A stretch of DNA of 64,000 nucleotides from Jiella sonneratiae (lineage in GTDB: Bacteria > Pseudomonadota > Alphaproteobacteria > Rhizobiales > Rhizobiaceae), in the NCBI RefSeq assembly GCF_017353515.1, contig NZ_JAFMPY010000021.1, positions 1-64,000 of the forward strand. Reading direction: 5' to 3'. The translations under genes were made by a program, and so were the position numbers. The first letter of the stretch is position 1. Each line of letters opens with the position of its first letter. The notes below the pieces were generated by a model that saw only the letters and a list, made by a program, of their open reading frames with translations, had not been told where the DNA came from and did not search any database. Of the stretch, positions 7,661 through 42,254 are shown piece after piece.

Positions 7661-8194
7661 ATGTCTCGTATTGGTAAGAAGCCGGTGACGGTGCCCGATG
7701 GCGTGACCGCCACGGTCGACGGTCAGACGGTCAAGGCCAAGGGTCCGAAGGGCGAGCTCGCCTTCGTCGTCAACGACGAGGTGCTGGTGAAGCTCGAGGA
7801 CGGTGGCATCAAGGTCGATCCGCGGGATCAGTCGAAGGAAGCGCGCTCCAAGTGGGGCATGTCGCGCACGATGATCTCCAACATCCTCGACGGCGTGAAG
7901 TCCGGCTTCGAGAAGAAGCTCGAGATCAACGGCGTCGGCTATCGCGCGGCGATGCAGGGCAAGAACCTGCAGCTGTCGCTCGGCTTCTCGCACGAGGTCG
8001 TCTACCAGACGCCCGAGGGCATCCAGATCCAGGTGCCGAAGCCGACGGAGATCGTCGTCACCGGCATCGACAAGCAGAAGGTCGGGCAGGTCGCGGCCGA
8101 GATCCGCGAGTATCGCGGACCCGAGCCCTACAAGGGCAAGGGCGTGAAGTACGCGGCCGAGAAGATCGTCCGCAAGGAAGGCAAGAAGAAGTAA
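7661..8194 (+). CDS. rplF: 50S ribosomal protein L6
   Basis: 177 residues, [15 protein letters not shown] at the start and the L6 C-terminal signature [21 protein letters not shown]6 binds near the sarcin-ricin loop. Confidence 0.98.
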
Positions 8195-8203
8195 GGTCCC
8201 GTC

Positions 8204-8566
8204 ATGGCTACTGCTAAAGAATCGCTGCGGCGCCGTGCTTCGCGGATCCGCCGCTCGCTGAAGAAGGTCTCGAACGGCCGCCCGCGCCTGTCGGTGCACC
8301 GTTCGTCCAAGAACATCTACGCCCAGATCATCGACGACGAGGCGGGCCGCACGCTCGCTTCCGCCTCGACGCTCGAGGCGGCGCTGCGCAAGGACCTGAA
8401 GACCGGTGCCGACGTCGCCGCGGCGACGGCGGTCGGCAAGCTCGTCGCCGAGCGCGCCAAGGAAGCCGGCGTCACCGACGTCGTCTTCGATCGCGGCGCC
8501 TTCATCTATCACGGCCGGGTCAAGGCGCTTGCCGACTCCGCCCGCGAGGCCGGCCTCAACTTCTGA
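8204..8566 (+). CDS. rplR: 50S ribosomal protein L18
   Basis: 120 residues. It contains [20 protein letters not shown] and the C-terminal [20 protein letters not shown], both typical of the 5S rRNA-binding protein L18. Confidence 0.97.
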
Positions 8567-8616
8567 GGACCCCGCCTCACAGCTCGCGGCCGCCCTTTGG
8601 GGCGGTCGCTTCGCCC

Positions 8617-8633
8617 GGCCGCCAATGGCGGCC
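8617..8633 (+). other. Perfect hairpin between rplR and rpsE
   Basis: GGCCGCC, AAT, GGCGGCC: a seven-base-pair stem with a 3-base loop in the 107-base gap. No T-tract follows. Possibly an mRNA-stability or processing element; role unproven. Confidence 0.3.
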
Positions 8634-8673
8634 GTTCCCATGGACGCCACCGGAAAAGAACAAGGACTAGGAT

Positions 8674-9258
8674 ATGGCGCCTCGCAATGACCGCAACGAC
8701 CGTCGCGACGATCACGACGACGGCTTCGTCGACAAGCTCGTCCACATCAACCGCGTCGCCAAGGTGGTGAAGGGCGGTCGGCGCTTCGGCTTCGCCGCCC
8801 TCGTCGTCGTCGGCGACCTGAAAGGCCGCGTCGGCTTCGGCCACGGCAAGGCCCGCGAGGTGCCGGAGGCCATCCGCAAGGCGACGGAAGCCGCCAAGCG
8901 CGACCTGATCTTCGTGCCGCTGCGCGACGGCCGCACGCTGCATCACGACGCCTCCGGGCGTCATGGCGCGGGCAAGGTGCTGCTGCGCACCGCGGAAGCC
9001 GGTACCGGCATCATCGCCGGCGGCCCGATGCGCGCCGTCTTCGAGGCGGTCGGCATGCACGACGTCGTCGCCAAGTCGCTCGGCTCGTCGAACCCCTACA
9101 ACATGGTCCGCGCCACCTTCGACGCGCTGAAGAACGCGACCCATCCGAAGGACGTCGCTGCCCGCCGCGGCATCAAGTATTCGACGCTGCAGGCAAGGCG
9201 CCAGGAACATCGCGGCGCGGCCCCGGCCGCTGCCGAAGAAGCCGCCGCCGCCGAGTGA
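8674..9258 (+). CDS. rpsE: 30S ribosomal protein S5
   Basis: 194 residues. The double-stranded RNA-binding-like region has [20 protein letters not shown] and the C-terminal half has [20 protein letters not shown], both S5 signatures. S5 acts in decoding fidelity. The Ala/Glu-rich C-terminal tail is normal for this group. Confidence 0.98.
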
Positions 9259-9298
9259 CCTGGCCGGCCTTCGTGCCATCGTTTGAAGGAGCCTGACC

Positions 9299-9502
9299 AT
9301 GGCCAATGCAAAGACCGCCGGCAAGACGGTGACCGTCGAGCAGATCGGCAGCCCGATCCGCCGCCCGAAGGATCAGCGCCAGACGCTGATCGGCCTCGGC
9401 CTCAACAAGATGAACCGCCGTCGCACCCTGGTCGACACGCCCGCCGTCCGCGGGATGATCGCCAAGGTGGCGCACATGGTGCGGATCGTCGACGAGGCCT
9501 GA
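9299..9502 (+). CDS. rpmD: 50S ribosomal protein L30
   Basis: 67 residues; [20 protein letters not shown] and [16 protein letters not shown] identify L30. The ATG follows AAGGAGCCTGACC. Confidence 0.97.
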
Positions 9503-9614
9503 GCGCTTCCGACGGAGCGACCCGCGCGTGAGGGCGCGGGTTCCAACCCCTTTCGCAAGGCGGCGCCGCTCGAGCCCCAATCCGGCTCGCGCCGCTGCCG
9601 AGGAGACGAGACCA

Positions 9615-10103
9615 ATGAAACTCAACGAGCTTTCCGACATCGAGGGCGCCACCCATTCGCGCAAGCGCGTGGGCCGGGGTATCGGTTCGGGCAAGGGCAA
9701 GACCGGCGGGCGCGGCGTCAAGGGCCAGAAGTCCCGCTCGGGCGTCGCCGTCAACGCCTTCGAGGGCGGCCAGATGCCGCTCTACCGCCGCCTGCCGAAG
9801 CGCGGCTTCGTCAACATCTTCGCCAAGAAGTACAACACCGTCTCCGTCGGCCGCCTGCAGCAGGCCGTCGACGCCGGCAAGCTCGACGCCTCGGCGCCGG
9901 TCGACGTCGCGGCGCTGATCGCGGCGGGCGTCGTGCGGCGCGCCAAGGACGGCGTGCGCCTGCTCGGCGACGGCGAACTCTCGGCGAAGCTGACGCTCAC
10001 CGTCGCCGGTGCTTCGAAGTCGGCTGTCGAGAAGGTCGAGAAGGCCGGCGGCTCGGTCACCGCGACCGTCGTCCGCAAGTCCGACGAGACCGGCGCCGCC
10101 TGA
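9615..10103 (+). CDS. rplO: 50S ribosomal protein L15
   Basis: 162 residues. It begins [20 protein letters not shown] and has [20 protein letters not shown], the Gly/Lys-rich L15 loop. The start follows GAGGAGACGAGACCA; the upstream frame extension overlaps non-coding sequence after rpmD. Confidence 0.97.
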
Positions 10104-10199
10104 TCGGCGTCGCCGCGACGCGTCGGCCGGCTGCCGACCGACGCGCGGCGGGAGTGGGCCACTGAACGCGCCGTCGCCCGATCCGGGCAAATTGGGCGC

Positions 10200-29637: not shown

Positions 29638-29666
<29 letters not shown>
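27753..29666 (+). CDS. bchB: Light-independent protochlorophyllide reductase subunit B with a repeat-derived insert
   Basis: 637 residues, about 100 more than usual (about 510-540). Cluster residues are intact: the Asp in [13 protein letters not shown] (the unusual Asp ligand) and the Cys in [13 protein letters not shown]. The C-terminal small domain (from about residue 580: [20 protein letters not shown]) that helps bind substrate is present. The extra length sits between [12 protein letters not shown] (about 149) and [14 protein letters not shown] (260), where two inverted copies of a genomic repeat encode about residues 165-230. The frame stays open, so the protein is probably functional with a long disordered loop. 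It overlaps bchH by 29 bases. Confidence 0.94.
28245..28290 (+). repeat. Palindromic repeat copy A inside bchB
   Basis: 46 bases matching the reverse complement of copy B (28393-28440) except for two single-base deletions and one substitution. Its core CTCCCCC-GCAA-GGGGGGAG is itself a hairpin. Elements of this look (CATCTCCCCC...GGGGGGAGATCG) are common between genes in Rhizobiales; here it is translated as [12 protein letters not shown]. Confidence 0.85.
28393..28440 (-). repeat. Palindromic repeat copy B inside bchB
   Basis: 48 bases, inverted relative to copy A and 102 bases downstream of it. Its hairpin core is CTCCCCCC-TTGT-GGGGGAG. Translated in the bchB frame it gives [16 protein letters not shown]. 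Together with copy A it could fold the bchB mRNA into a long stem. Confidence 0.85.
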
Positions 29667-34304
<4,638 letters not shown>

Positions 34305-37985: not shown

Positions 37986-38498
37986 ATGCGAGGCCTTGCC
38001 GCAGCCATCAGGAACGGGTCGATCAAGCTCAGCCCGGACCAGGATCGTCCGATCCCGAGGCCGATCCTGATCGGCGCCGGCGCCCTGGCGCTGACGGCGC
38101 TGGTCGCGATCGCCGGCGGCAGGACGACCGGGGTGGGCGTCGCCGACACGCCGCAGGTCGAGACCGTCGTGCATCGCGACCTGCGGCTCGACGAGCGCGC
38201 CGACGGCTCCGTCGCGGTGGTCGACGGCGAGAGCCGTGCGCCGCTGATCGAGGTCGGGCCGGGCGAGGGCGCCTTCGCGGTCGAGGCGCTGCGCAACCTT
38301 TCGCGGGATCGCGTCCGCAAGGGCGTGTCGGCCGACGGGGCCTTCGTCCTCGCCCTGAAATCCGACGGACGGCTGGTGGTCGAGGATCCCGAGACGTCCC
38401 AGCAGGTGGAATTGCGGGCATTCGGCGAAAAGCAGGCGATGGCCTTCGCACGGCTTCTGCCGGCGCCGGACGCCGCGACAAGGGGAGGCGTGAGATGA
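37986..38498 (+). CDS. puhC: Photosynthetic complex assembly protein PuhC
   Basis: 170 residues. One membrane helix (about 25-45), then a periplasmic domain with [16 protein letters not shown] and [20 protein letters not shown], typical of PuhC. It is needed for full amounts of the RC-LH1 core in Rhodobacter. Overlaps the next gene (ATGA). Confidence 0.92.
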
Positions 38499-38797
38499 TC
38501 GAGAGAATGCTCGGCAAGCGATCCGAGGAAGTCGGCTGCACCGTCGAGGTGTCGAACACCTTCGACAGCCTGCACGCCCATGTCCGCTTCGACGGCGGCG
38601 TCACCGTCGAGCCCGGCGACGAGGTGCTCGTCCACGGGGCGCCGGTGGAAGTGCCCTATGGCGAGACCGCCTATCTGAGGCGCCGGGCGACGATTCGCCG
38701 GGCCGGCTGGCTGGAGCGCGCCTGGACGCGGGCGACCGGCGATTTCGAATTCATGGAGCTTTGCGAATTCTCCTTCTCGGAAAGGGCAACGCTATGA
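38495..38797 (+). CDS. Small protein between puhC and acsF, function unknown
   Basis: 100 residues, soluble, no membrane segment. A central beta-rich part ([40 protein letters not shown]) may be an OB- or SH3-like barrel; the C-terminus has [20 protein letters not shown]. Similar-sized genes sit at this place in other purple-bacterial clusters, as far as I recall. Four-base overlaps with puhC and acsF on both sides argue for coupled synthesis and a role in assembly or in the cyclase step. Function not known to me. Confidence 0.82.
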
Positions 38798-39882
38798 ACG
38801 CGCATGCGAGAATTTCCCACGGGGCCCCGGTCCGGGAGGCGCCGAACGAGACCACCAAGATCGCCCAGCAGGACACGCTGCTCACCCCCCGCTTCTACAC
38901 CACGGATTTCGACAAGCTCGACAAAGTCGACGTCTCGGGGGTTCGCCGGGAGTGGGACGCGCTGATCGCCGAGATGAAGTCGGACCCGAACAAGGGGCAC
39001 TTCCGGCGCGACGAAAACTGGGACCACGTCTCGCTCGACGACCTGCCCGAGGGGCTGCGCAAGGAGTTCGTCGACTTCCTCGTCTCCTCGCTGACCGCGG
39101 AATTCTCCGGCTGCGTGCTCTACAAGGAGATGAAGCGGCGCGGCTCGAATCCCGACATCTGCGAGCTGTTCTCCTACATGAGCCGCGACGAGGCGCGCCA
39201 TGCCGGCTTCATCAACGACGCGCTGAAGGAGTTCGGCATCGGCGTCAATCTCGGCTTCCTGACCAAGGAGAAGAAGTACACCTTCTTCCAGCCGAAGTTC
39301 ATCTACTACGCGACCTATCTCTCCGAAAAGATCGGCTACGCCCGCTACATCACCATCTTCCGGCATCTCGAACAGCATCCGGAGCGGCGCTTCCACCCGA
39401 TCTTCAAGTGGTTCGAGAAGTGGTGCAACGACGAGTTCCGGCACGGCGAGGCCTTCTCGCTGCTGATGCGGGCCGAGCGCAAGACCCTGGAAGGGCGGAA
39501 CAAGCTGTGGATCCGCTTCTTCCTGCTCGCGGTCTTCGCGACGATGTACGTCCGCGACCATGCCCGTCCCGCCTTCCACGAGGCGCTCGGCCTCGAGCCG
39601 AGCGACTACGGCTTCAAGGTGTTCAGGATCACCAGCGAGATCTCGCGCCAGGTCTTTCCGGTGATGCTCGACATCGACGATCCGCGCTTCCGGGCGGGGC
39701 TCGACCGGCTGGTCGAGATCAGCCGCGGCATCGACGCCGCGTCCCGGCAGGGCGGGATCGCCGGAAAGCTGAAGGTGTGGCGCGGCAAGGCCGCCGCGGC
39801 CCTGACCTTCGCCCGGCTCTACACGCTGCCGGTGATCCGGAACGAAATCCCCGCCGACAGCCGGCTGCAGCCGGTGTGGTGA
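38794..39882 (+). CDS. acsF: Mg-protoporphyrin IX monomethyl ester (oxidative) cyclase
   Basis: 362 residues. It is the oxygen-dependent di-iron enzyme that forms ring E of (bacterio)chlorophyll. Di-iron ligands are visible in [33 protein letters not shown] and [16 protein letters not shown] chose the ATG overlapping the upstream stop; the longer frame reads through that gene. Its presence shows the organism can make bacteriochlorophyll under oxygen; no bchE is in the window. A repeat-bearing gap follows before puhE. Confidence 0.96.
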
Positions 39883-39955
39883 GGCTGAAGAAGTCGGCGG
39901 CCCGTCGGTCGCCGCCGCGCGGCCATCTCACAGGACGGGCGGAACCATCGAAACT

Positions 39956-39987
39956 CGTCATCCCGGGCTTGACCCGGGATCCATTCC
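39956..39987 (+). repeat. Left arm of a 32-base perfect inverted repeat
   Basis: Starts CGTCATCCCGGGCTTGACCC and ends GGATCCATTCC. It is the exact reverse complement of 40062-40093. Sequences of this type are scattered between genes in many alphaproteobacterial genomes. The arm also contains its own palindrome, CCCGGGCTTGACCCGGG. Confidence 0.9.
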
Positions 39988-40061: not shown

Positions 40062-40093
40062 GGAATGGATCCCGGGTCAAGCCCGGGATGACG
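40062..40093 (-). repeat. Right arm of the 32-base perfect inverted repeat
   Basis: Exact reverse complement of 39956-39987, 74 bases apart. The transcript between acsF and puhE can form a 32-base-pair stem. It may cause termination, RNA processing or 3'-end protection of the acsF message. The rest of the 293-base gap holds nothing else I recognise. Confidence 0.9.
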
Positions 40094-40175
40094 ACCGTTT
40101 CGATGCCGGCGGCAAACACGGCAGATCGCACCCGGCTTCGATCGCGCCAGCGATGCCCACCAAAGGAGAACGGTC

Positions 40176-42254
40176 ATGACCGAATATCTCTATCCGGCGC
40201 TGTTCGCGCTGTTCGTCTGGTGGGCCTCAACCGTCCTGATCATCTATCTCGACGGGCTGAAGCGCTGGACCTTCAAATATTCGATGATCGGCGCGACGCT
40301 GATCTTCGTGGTCTCGCTGATCGGCCTCTACCGATCGGCCCAGGACGCGAGCGTCGCCGGCGCCTATCTCGCCTTCACCTGGGGGCTGCTCGCCTGGGGC
40401 TGGCAGGAGATGAGCTTCTACATGGGCTACGTCACCGGCCCGCGGAAGCAGCCCTGCCCGGAGAACTGCAAGGGCTTCAGGCACTTCGTCCATGCCGTGC
40501 AGACCAGCCTCTACCACGAGCTGGCGATCATCGTCGCCGCCGCTGCCGTCGTCTGGCTCACCTGGGGCGCGCCCAACCAGATCGGAATGTGGACCTTCAT
40601 GGTGCTGTGGTGGATGCACCAGAGCGCCAAGCTCAACGTCTTCTTCGGCGTGCGGAACCTCAACGAGGAGTTCCTCCCCGAGCACCTCGAATTTTTGAAG
40701 GGCTTCCTCAACAAGCGGTCGATGAACCTGCTCTTTCCGTTCTCCGTCACCATCTCGACGGTGATCACGGCGCTGCTCGTCGTCGCGGCCATGGCGGAGG
40801 GGGCGGGCGCCTTCGAGCGCGCCGGCTACACCTTCCTCGCCGTTCTGATGGCTCTGGCGATCCTCGAGCACTGGATGCTCGTCCTGCCGATGCCGGCCGG
40901 CGCGATCTGGTCGCCGGCGCTGAAGTCCCGCGGCACCAGCCAGCCCTTCGAGGCGGAGATCGTCGTCGGCTTCCTCGGCGCCGGCAAGACGACGACGCTG
41001 CGCCACATGCTCTCCGAGGCCGATCCGAACGTGAAGACCGTCGTCCTCGTCAACGACTTCGGCGAACTCGGCATCGACGGCTCGCTGCTCGACGGGCAGG
41101 GGGCGGACGTGGTCGAGCTCTCCAACGGCTGCATCTGCTGCTCGCTGCGCAAGGACCTGTCGGCGCAGCTGCGCGAGGTTGTCGCCAAGATCAGGCCGCA
41201 GCGTGTGCTGATCGAGCCCTCCGGCGTCGCCGACGTCGCCTCGCTGCTGCGCGTCCTGCACGAGCCGGAGATCCGCAGCCTGACGAAGTCTCTCAGGCTC
41301 TACACGGTGATCGACGCCGGCGCGTTCCTCAAGGACTTCGCCCGCATGCCGGACTACTTCCGCATCCAGGCGAAGCTGGCGCCGGTGTTCATCGTCAACA
41401 AGACCGATCTCGTCTCGGCCGGCGAGATCGAGACGATCCGCGAGACGCTCGTCGCGCTCAATCCGTCGGCGAAGATCCTCGCTGCCCGCTACGGCATCGT
41501 CGAGGGCGGGCTCGATCCGGCCATCGCCCTGTCGCGCTGGGTGGCGCCCGATACCGACATGGTGGACGGCCAGGCGCAGGGCAGCGGACGCGCCGCCGCC
41601 CGCAGCCATGCGGCCGGGACCGGCCATGCGCATGCGGCCCACACCCGCACCCACACCCACACCCGCGCCGATGGCGGAGCGGAAGACCACGGCAGCGCCG
41701 GCGGGGAGGGCCGCTTGCACGATGCGCACCTGCATCACGCGCATGGGCACGACTCGCACGACCATGCTGCCCATGCCGACGGGCACGATCACGATCACGA
41801 TCACAAACACGACCATCGGCACGATCACGGGCATGCGCATCATCACGACCACGCGCATCATCACGATCACCGTCACGACGAGCCGGGCCTCGGCCTTTCG
41901 TCCTGGAGCCGGCGCCTTTCCGGCAGCGTCGATGCCGACGCTTTGCGGGGCATCTTGGCCGAGGTGGTGGCGGGCCATGCCGGCGAGATCGACCGCATGA
42001 AGGGTATCGTCGCGGCGCGCGGCGGCGGCTGGCTGCGCTTCGACGTCGCGGGCGGGCGGGCGTCGATCTCGGCGCATGTGCCGAAGGACGGCGAGACCCC
42101 GCGGGCGCTGGCGATCGGCAGCGCTCCCGACGCCGGCTGGCTCGACAGGGCCTTCGCCGATCTCGGCGGCACGGATATCTCGTCGATGAGGGACGAGGCG
42201 ATTTCGCCGACCTCGATCCTGGCGCCGGCTGCGAACGTCCTGCCGGCCGAATGA
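40176..42254 (+). CDS. puhE: PuhE fused to a CobW-type G3E GTPase with a His-rich segment
   Basis: 692 residues in one frame. Residues 1-252 are PuhE (DUF3623), a membrane protein with about six or seven helices, here with WQEMSFYMGYVTGPRKQPCP and LNVFFGVRNLNEEFLPEHLE; alone it is about 270 residues and helps photosynthetic-complex assembly. Residues 260-690 are a G3E GTPase: Walker A GFLGAGKTT (265-273), the metal-binding CxCC in NGCICCSL (319-322), IEPSGVADV (347 onward), NKTD (408-411) and a CobW C-terminal domain (about 575-665). Between GTPase and C-terminal domain, residues 478-568 hold about 34 His. Only a short linker joins PuhE to the GTPase. Such GTPases act as metallochaperones; this one would be tethered to the membrane next to bacteriochlorophyll and di-iron enzymes. 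The metal is unknown. Confidence 0.92.
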   Translation: MTEYLYPALFALFVWWASTVLIIYLDGLKRWTFKYSMIGATLIFVVSLIGLYRSAQDASVAGAYLAFTWGLLAWGWQEMSFYMGYVTGPRKQPCPENCKGFRHFVHAVQTSLYHELAIIVAAAAVVWLTWGAPNQIGMWTFMVLWWMHQSAKLNVFFGVRNLNEEFLPEHLEFLKGFLNKRSMNLLFPFSVTISTVITALLVVAAMAEGAGAFERAGYTFLAVLMALAILEHWMLVLPMPAGAIWSPALKSRGTSQPFEAEIVVGFLGAGKTTTLRHMLSEADPNVKTVVLVNDFGELGIDGSLLDGQGADVVELSNGCICCSLRKDLSAQLREVVAKIRPQRVLIEPSGVADVASLLRVLHEPEIRSLTKSLRLYTVIDAGAFLKDFARMPDYFRIQAKLAPVFIVNKTDLVSAGEIETIRETLVALNPSAKILAARYGIVEGGLDPAIALSRWVAPDTDMVDGQAQGSGRAAARSHAAGTGHAHAAHTRTHTHTRADGGAEDHGSAGGEGRLHDAHLHHAHGHDSHDHAAHADGHDHDHDHKHDHRHDHGHAHHHDHAHHHDHRHDEPGLGLSSWSRRLSGSVDADALRGILAEVVAGHAGEIDRMKGIVAARGGGWLRFDVAGGRASISAHVPKDGETPRALAIGSAPDAGWLDRAFADLGGTDISSMRDEAISPTSILAPAANVLPAE

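Follow-up and report, generated by a model that had tools for sequence, protein, structure and literature searches.

The window, by which we mean the whole stretch of DNA analysed (64,000 nucleotides; Jiella sonneratiae, assembly GCF_017353515.1, contig NZ_JAFMPY010000021.1, positions 1 to 64,000), contains an open frame in which PuhE, a membrane protein with a part in bacteriochlorophyll production, runs on into a GTPase of the COG0523 family, whose members handle metals. This raises the questions of whether the joined gene is real and what such a GTPase would do on PuhE. In the title of a 2005 paper, Aklujkar reportedly called PuhE a putative negative modulator. To our knowledge, a mutant phenotype of PuhE is in print, and we have come across no biochemistry.

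Architecture of the fusion protein

The preliminary description of this DNA had read the frame as PuhE followed by a G3E GTPase with Walker A, CxCC and NKTD motifs and a C-terminal domain, and all of these parts were found:

40176-42254, + strand: PuhE-GTPase fusion gene, a single open frame of 692 codons
40176..40934, + strand: PuhE (DUF3623) membrane domain, residues 1-253, from family profiles; seven long helices predicted
40956..41480, + strand: COG0523/cobW G3E GTPase domain, residues 261-435, from Pfam, profile scores and tree
40968..40991, + strand: Walker A GFLGAGKT, residues 265-272, read in the translation
41130..41141, + strand: CICC metal motif (CxCC), residues 319-322, read in the translation
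41397..41408, + strand: NKTD motif, residues 408-411, read in the translation
41541..41897, + strand: His-rich linker, residues ~456-574, mostly predicted to be disordered
41898..42167, + strand: CobW_C-type C-terminal domain, residues ~575-664, from Pfam, AlphaFold2, Foldseek and a profile of the C-terminal domain (CTD)

Residues 1-253 represent a full PuhE, scoring 310.9 bits with TIGR03055 (cut-off 164.05) and 353.8 bits with Pfam DUF3623 (PF12291, cut-off 27). The GTPase part, which also contains an EPSG motif, reached 146 bits with Pfam cobW (residues 262-435, cut-off 20.7). CobW_C was not found in a Pfam scan of the whole protein at E values up to 10; the last 121 residues alone scored 30 bits with it (Pfam cut-off 22). 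In an AlphaFold2 model built from 48 sequences (mean pLDDT 75.3, pTM 0.61), the helices of PuhE were followed by a GTPase domain, a stretch of low confidence at residues 459-569 and, at the C-terminal end, a domain of alpha/beta type; YjiA ranked first when this model was searched with Foldseek (E 7e-12, 438 alignment columns, gaps included). A Foldseek search of the PDB with the PuhE model returned no match at E <= 0.001, the best value being 0.52. An acyltransferase (TmAT) reading of DUF3623 has been dropped by the authors of PMC12423673; according to that article, DUF3623 shares no fold with the TmAT superfamily and was removed from the Pfam clan.

Distribution of the fusion and selective constraint

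The preliminary description had called the frame uninterrupted, and the comparison with other genomes bears this out. Among 220 distinct PuhE domains from many assemblies, 52 continue in-frame into the GTPase, a proportion that is not a frequency because the domains were gathered in several searches, some with the fused protein as the query. A CobW_C-like domain without the GTPase follows PuhE in another 17, neither is present in 145, three share a frame with HemA, and three cut by contig ends were set aside. Two of the 52 (L042 and L045) break off within the GTPase, and one (L022) is frameshifted. In a set of 49 PuhE-bearing loci, collected with the fused protein as the query and so favouring fused loci, PuhE leads into the GTPase in one frame in 45 (three of them cut by contig ends and one, L022, with its frameshift in the GTPase); the exceptions are L047, L049, L053 and L048, the last of which is contig-cut.

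Compared with eight relatives, PuhE had a dN/dS of 0.07-0.17, the GTPase one of 0.09-0.27 and the C-terminal domain one of 0.22-0.43; the fused GTPases are thus under purifying selection. Although L022 illustrates a frameshift in the fusion gene of a public assembly, nothing of the kind was found for the window, and as 52 distinct PuhE sequences are joined in this frame and the GTPase has these dN/dS values, we reject a missed stop or frameshift joining two genes, the chance of which is next to nil. In L022 itself, a locus of the public Jiella pelagia chromosome, the frameshift lies within the GTPase part of the gene (7950-10149) and reflects either a sequencing error or a pseudogene.

When the PuhE family alone was the query, the fusion was present in 3 of the 27 genomes with a PuhE above the cut-off when 385 genomes were drawn from the class, in 2 of 75 when 397 were drawn from the order, and in 9 of 26 in the family of J. 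sonneratiae (199 genomes), the J. sonneratiae genome itself being included in each of these draws. It was also present in 18 of the 79 PuhE genomes in the family of genome G334 (249 genomes), one of the 18 (G1149) being cut by a contig end, and in 3 of 31 (G000, G729 and G334) in a phylum draw of 398. In these counts the presence of the GTPase was verified wherever the locus sequence was retrieved, and the remaining genomes were judged by frame length, so that short contigs may hide some fusions; long PuhE frames that turned out not to be this fusion (G283, G405, G514, G547, G1142, G1179 and G1384) were left uncounted. Named carriers include Jiella, Aurantimonas, Fulvimarina, Pararhizobium mangrovi, Lichenibacterium, Acidiphilium rubrum, Acidocella and Lichenicoccus. 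The names Kouleothrix, Thiodictyon, Ferrovum and Acidobacteria on metagenome-assembled genomes (MAGs) are those of the depositors and may reflect faulty binning. These results confirmed that the fusion gene is real, conserved and common to many phototrophic bacteria. In PLSDB, 1541 plasmid records matched the fusion query, none over 80% of its length, and the annotated plasmids among the 20 matches listed carry PuhE (some with acsF or hemA) or a GTP-binding protein/ZigA.

Three genomes of a single genus (g692), which belongs to the same family as J. sonneratiae, contain a second, diverged PuhE match without a GTPase in addition to the fused one: in L264 and L265 (genomes G1455 and G1359) and at G1520:C23:245007-245312, where the match is only partial.

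The preliminary description had known of no protein with this architecture, and we found no description of the fusion in passages of the open-access literature searched, a body that excludes most subscription journals. Within the same limits, mentions of CobW concerned genes for cobalamin, the COG0523 family as a whole, or, in PMC7109303, a protein of Rhodospirillum rubrum that a proteomics table names after CobW, and not the fusion. The domain architecture is apparently undescribed, and both of its halves come from known families.

Relatives and origin of the fused GTPase

In a tree of 106 GTPases, one starred set (97) on a stem of 1.07 comprised 51 fused sequences plus the second half of L022, the frameshifted protein, and had no truly free-standing member; the place of this set among COG0523 proteins is unsure, with long branches nearby. 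The fused GTPases thus share common descent, and since they form one group without a free-standing member, the fusion probably arose once. Across 27 genomes searched with a profile of the fused GTPases, the five fused proteins scored 321-536 bits and the best free COG0523 protein 184. A free-standing orthologue acting in trans was accordingly dismissed, none being present in these 27 genomes, 22 of which have no fused GTPase (one of the 22, G1235, has no PuhE match either).

None of the NCBIfam GTPase equivalogs reached its cut-off with the fusion protein, which scored 99.4 bits with the ZigA equivalog NF038288 (cut-off 600). Identity with the CobW of B12 synthesis was likewise rejected, the score with TIGR02475 being 93.6 bits against a cut-off of 332.1, and the same genome encodes a separate true CobW (L003, 534.3 bits).

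Walker A and NKxD are near-invariant in the fused proteins, and CxCC is intact in 48 of the 52; three (L044, L046 and L238) have lost CxCC and kept the two nucleotide motifs. Most linkers contain 10 or more histidines. Five have 0-2, namely those of L044, L046 and three proteins with an intact CxCC, L015, L033 and L034 (0, 1 and 0 histidines, respectively).

Gene neighbourhood

The genes and the repeat that bear on the setting of the fusion are the following:

29638..33396, + strand: bchH, Mg chelatase subunit H, upstream of the fusion on the same strand
38495..38797, + strand: small ORF at the bciE position, with no Pfam or NCBIfam match
38794..39882, + strand: acsF, oxygen-dependent Mg-protoporphyrin monomethyl ester cyclase (rubrerythrin-like), adjoining the fusion upstream
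39955-39987 and 40062-40094, + strand: dispersed palindromic repeat in the gap between acsF and the fusion gene, 33-nt inverted arms 74 nt apart

The cluster in the window consists of bchH, bchL, bchM, an lhaA-like gene, puhA, puhB, puhC, a 100-residue ORF, acsF and the fusion gene. The small ORF upstream of acsF is named by position and is presumably bciE, and we take the gene between bchM and puhA to be lhaA-like, its single NCBIfam match being a transporter superfamily under the cut-off. With puhA, puhB, puhC and acsF upstream on the same strand, the fusion occupies the place of PuhE in a photosynthesis gene cluster. The usual order is puhABC-ORF-acsF-puhE-hemA, and CobW is not mentioned in the passages that give it (PMC3176799, PMC4082002). 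In the window, hemA is absent downstream of the fusion, where a GNAT gene on the other strand comes next, and the only hemA over the cut-off in this genome lies on another contig.

The preliminary description had placed the fusion in an operon with bchH. The upstream position of bchH on the same strand stands; acsF and the fusion gene, however, are 293 nt apart with the palindromic repeat between them, and a single operon from bchH through acsF to the fusion is therefore something that we infer. A 30-base part of the repeat arm occurs in 31 copies in the genome at up to 3 mismatches, the two in the window included; the control gave 0.

The position of the fusion beside acsF, also claimed at the outset, proved general: in loci with room for a neighbour, AcsF is directly upstream in 46 of the 50 fused cases, in 16 of 17 with CobW_C only and in 138 of 145 others, and HemA is directly downstream in 21/44, 16/17 and 125/139, respectively, the others in both counts including the HemA-frame proteins. 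AcsF being equally common beside PuhE without GTPase or CobW_C, its neighbourhood is a property of PuhE and not of the fusion. BchE, the anaerobic cyclase, scored above the cut-off in 6 of 27 genomes with the fusion, 10 of 16 with CobW_C only and 7 of 21 with plain PuhE (in the fused genome G099 it is in two pieces and under the cut-off), and a link between the fusion and the loss of BchE was dropped, these counts being too mixed.

The neighbourhood allows an explanation in which the di-iron cyclase AcsF would receive its iron from the tethered GTPase, and PuhE would merely anchor the GTPase in the membrane. Most fused genomes, lacking a BchE over the cut-off, seem to rely on AcsF, and the COG0523 protein Nha3 acts as maturase for an iron enzyme (PMC9164220). 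We nevertheless consider this explanation rather unlikely, because the PuhE proteins without GTPase or CobW_C that are just as regularly accompanied by acsF manage without the GTPase, because some fused genomes do have BchE, and because it leaves a conserved Cys/His set in PuhE unexplained.

A Cys/His set in PuhE

This set consists of five residues (C94, C98, H103, H106 and H148), abbreviated here as CCHHH:

40455..40493, + strand: C94-x3-C98-x4-H103-x2-H106, a putative metal site together with H148, in a loop and the start of TM4
40617..40619, + strand: codon of H148, the fifth CCHHH residue, in TM5

CCHHH was complete in all 52 GTPase-fused proteins, none of the 17 with CobW_C only, 20 of the 145 plain PuhE proteins (10 more of which have CCHHR instead) and one of the three HemA-frame proteins. 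The three fused proteins with a ruined CxCC keep it. The link between CCHHH and the GTPase is not strict, since plain PuhE proteins with the set and ruined-CxCC proteins that keep it both exist. Among the 79 PuhE columns that are near-invariant in the fused set, taking as lost those kept in 2 or fewer of the 17, the CobW_C-only proteins have lost 4 of 8 Cys/His columns versus 7 of 71 others (Fisher p 0.011, relatedness ignored). In L049, which belongs to the CobW_C-only class and is placed with fused proteins, 3 of 8 Cys/His columns are changed versus 6 of 71 others (p 0.044, relatedness ignored). An independent-pairs test on the tree, in which significance is unreachable with its 2 usable pairs, showed the motif going with the GTPase or no difference, and never the opposite. 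Shared ancestry accounts for part of the association, which is largely that of one clade. His-rich tails were not associated with CCHHH in plain PuhE (Mann-Whitney p 0.76, 20 versus 115 rows).

Loops 1, 3 and 5 and the C-terminal stretch contain 2, 3, 4 and 2 Lys and Arg residues, respectively, and loops 2, 4 and 6 contain none; by the positive-inside rule, the C94/C98 loop would be cytoplasmic, and so face the compartment that the GTPase has to occupy. H114, E115, E231 and H232 were present in 75 of 75 unfused PuhE rows and E78 in 69, and these residues look like a second, older PuhE core. The complete Cys/His set points to PuhE itself, rather than AcsF, as the partner of the GTPase.

PuhE with CobW_C only and PuhE joined to HemA

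The 17 PuhE proteins in which a CobW_C-like domain follows directly (L049, L120, L130, L134, L160-L164, L222, L225, L227, L231, L234, L235, L241 and L254) come from the order of J. sonneratiae, the family of G334 and one Geminicoccaceae MAG. With a profile of the fused CTDs, their domains scored 42-111 bits, and free COG0523 proteins, leaving aside the L022 half, 38 at most. Against Pfam CobW_C (cut-off 22), four of them gave 36.2 (L049), 34.1 (L164), 26.1 (L130) and 16.2 bits (L161, below the cut-off). In a CTD tree of 92 columns with weak support, 15 of the 17 clustered with L044 and L046 in a single open group, and the other two, L049 and L164, which keep a short His-rich stretch ahead of the CTD, grouped with other fused ones. 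A topology holding all PuhE-attached CTDs together was not rejected (p-AU 0.72). Plain PuhE proteins have a short tail after the domain, with class medians of 29-36 residues.

The forms read as a series from the full fusion through loss of the metal motif to loss of the GTPase. The PuhE tree, the best version of which needs 15 architecture changes and which sets the PuhE of L164 apart from the fused ones, is too weak to give the number or order of losses.

A second kind of PuhE fusion was observed in three genomes, in which PuhE and HemA (5-aminolevulinate synthase) share one open frame:

L109:1486-3543 (= L153:6368-8425): PuhE-HemA frame
L154:4110-6419: PuhE-HemA frame
L155:4358-6646: PuhE-HemA frame

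The GTPase might act as a regulatory switch without metal transfer, sensing GTP and metal state and turning the modulation of bacteriochlorophyll supply by PuhE up or down, with the metal site optional. The three fused proteins that retain nucleotide motifs and not CxCC, the 17 that keep CobW_C only, and the joining of PuhE to HemA, the first enzyme of that supply, would all suit such a switch. However, the intact CxCC in the great majority suggests that metal binding is under selection in most fused proteins, and we regard a switch of this kind as quite unlikely.

Proposed function

The best explanation, to which we assign a probability of about 0.42, is that the fusion is a membrane-tethered, GTP-gated COG0523 metallochaperone serving PuhE itself, beside AcsF. 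The GTPase, tethered at the cytoplasmic face and binding GTP/Mg, would load one transition metal on CxCC, most likely Zn or Fe, and the His-rich linker may buffer the metal. The GTPase would then pass the metal to, or read the metal state of, the C94/C98/H103/H106/H148 site on the same side of the membrane, with CobW_C as a docking domain, which in this proposal would be why CobW_C alone survives in some lineages. The near-constant CxCC, the CCHHH set in every fused protein, the lack of a close free-standing relative and the predicted cytoplasmic Cys loop are consistent with PuhE as the client. The 20 plain and one HemA-frame PuhE proteins that keep CCHHH without a GTPase, the three ruined-CxCC proteins that keep it as well, the three proteins with an intact CxCC and hardly any linker histidines, and the concentration of the motif-GTPase association in largely one clade argue against it. 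The tethered chaperone of the preliminary description, which beside AcsF was to deliver or guard a metal (Fe, Zn or Mg/Zn discrimination), survives in part: the fusion is conserved beside acsF, but the equal adjacency in PuhE without GTPase or CobW_C does not favour AcsF as the client.

An extension of the PuhE-serving chaperone that we think improbable is that PuhE would be an unrecognised membrane metalloprotein in the synthesis of bacteriochlorophyll, with an intramembrane E78/H114/E115/E231/H232 core and, in this lineage, its own maturase GTPase, loading through a cytoplasmic C94/C98/H103/H106/H148 relay; the Acidiphilium version could supply the zinc of Zn-bacteriochlorophyll.

Zinc also figures in an explanation in which the His-rich GTPase would guard Mg-tetrapyrroles against Zn or would be the Acidiphilium source of Zn for Zn-bacteriochlorophyll. 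The many histidines of most linkers would fit, as would Acidiphilium rubrum, which carries the fusion (L024) and, according to PMC4944227, uses Zn-bacteriochlorophyll although its chelatase inserts Mg. This role is highly doubtful, because five linkers are nearly free of histidine, no sequence mark was seen in the Acidiphilium proteins (their two linker Cys are also found in Acidocella), and the fusion is common to many genera that are not known for Zn-bacteriochlorophyll.

The covalent attachment of a metallochaperone hints strongly at a metal requirement of PuhE or of the step under its control next to the cyclase, and the fusion gives a testable handle on the old question of PuhE function. 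The natural series of full fusions, ruined-CxCC proteins, CobW_C-only proteins, plain PuhE and PuhE-HemA offers ready-made variants for asking which part does what. The fusion may also show how COG0523 proteins choose their clients, as the client may sit in the same chain.

Comparison with known systems

FeoB has a membrane domain unrelated to that of the fusion, its GTPase is not a COG0523 protein, and its domain order is reversed. The likeness is that FeoB, too, has a GTPase covalently tied to a metal-handling membrane protein (PMC9164220). CobW (TIGR02475), the cobalt chaperone for CobNST, belongs to the same superfamily as the fused GTPase, although the fusion lies far under its cut-off. 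In PMC7689651, CobW is described as gaining a thiol-rich, tight metal site with GTP, the CTDs of COG0523 proteins are thought to bind clients, and BchH is the Mg-chelatase counterpart of CobN. With COG0523 G3E GTPases in general (CobW, YjiA, ZigA/ZagA and Nha3), the fusion shares the fold, Walker A, CxCC, NKxD, the His-rich linker and CobW_C, and YjiA is its closest solved relative. Unlike these relatives, the fused GTPase sits behind a seven-helix membrane protein and forms its own group on a long stem. With PuhE (TIGR03055/DUF3623, PF12291), the fusion shares a full domain over the cut-offs, the residues H114, E115, E231 and H232, and the neighbour acsF. Whereas plain PuhE ends after a short tail, the fusion continues with the GTPase, linker and CobW_C, and in it C94, C98, H103, H106 and H148 are fixed.
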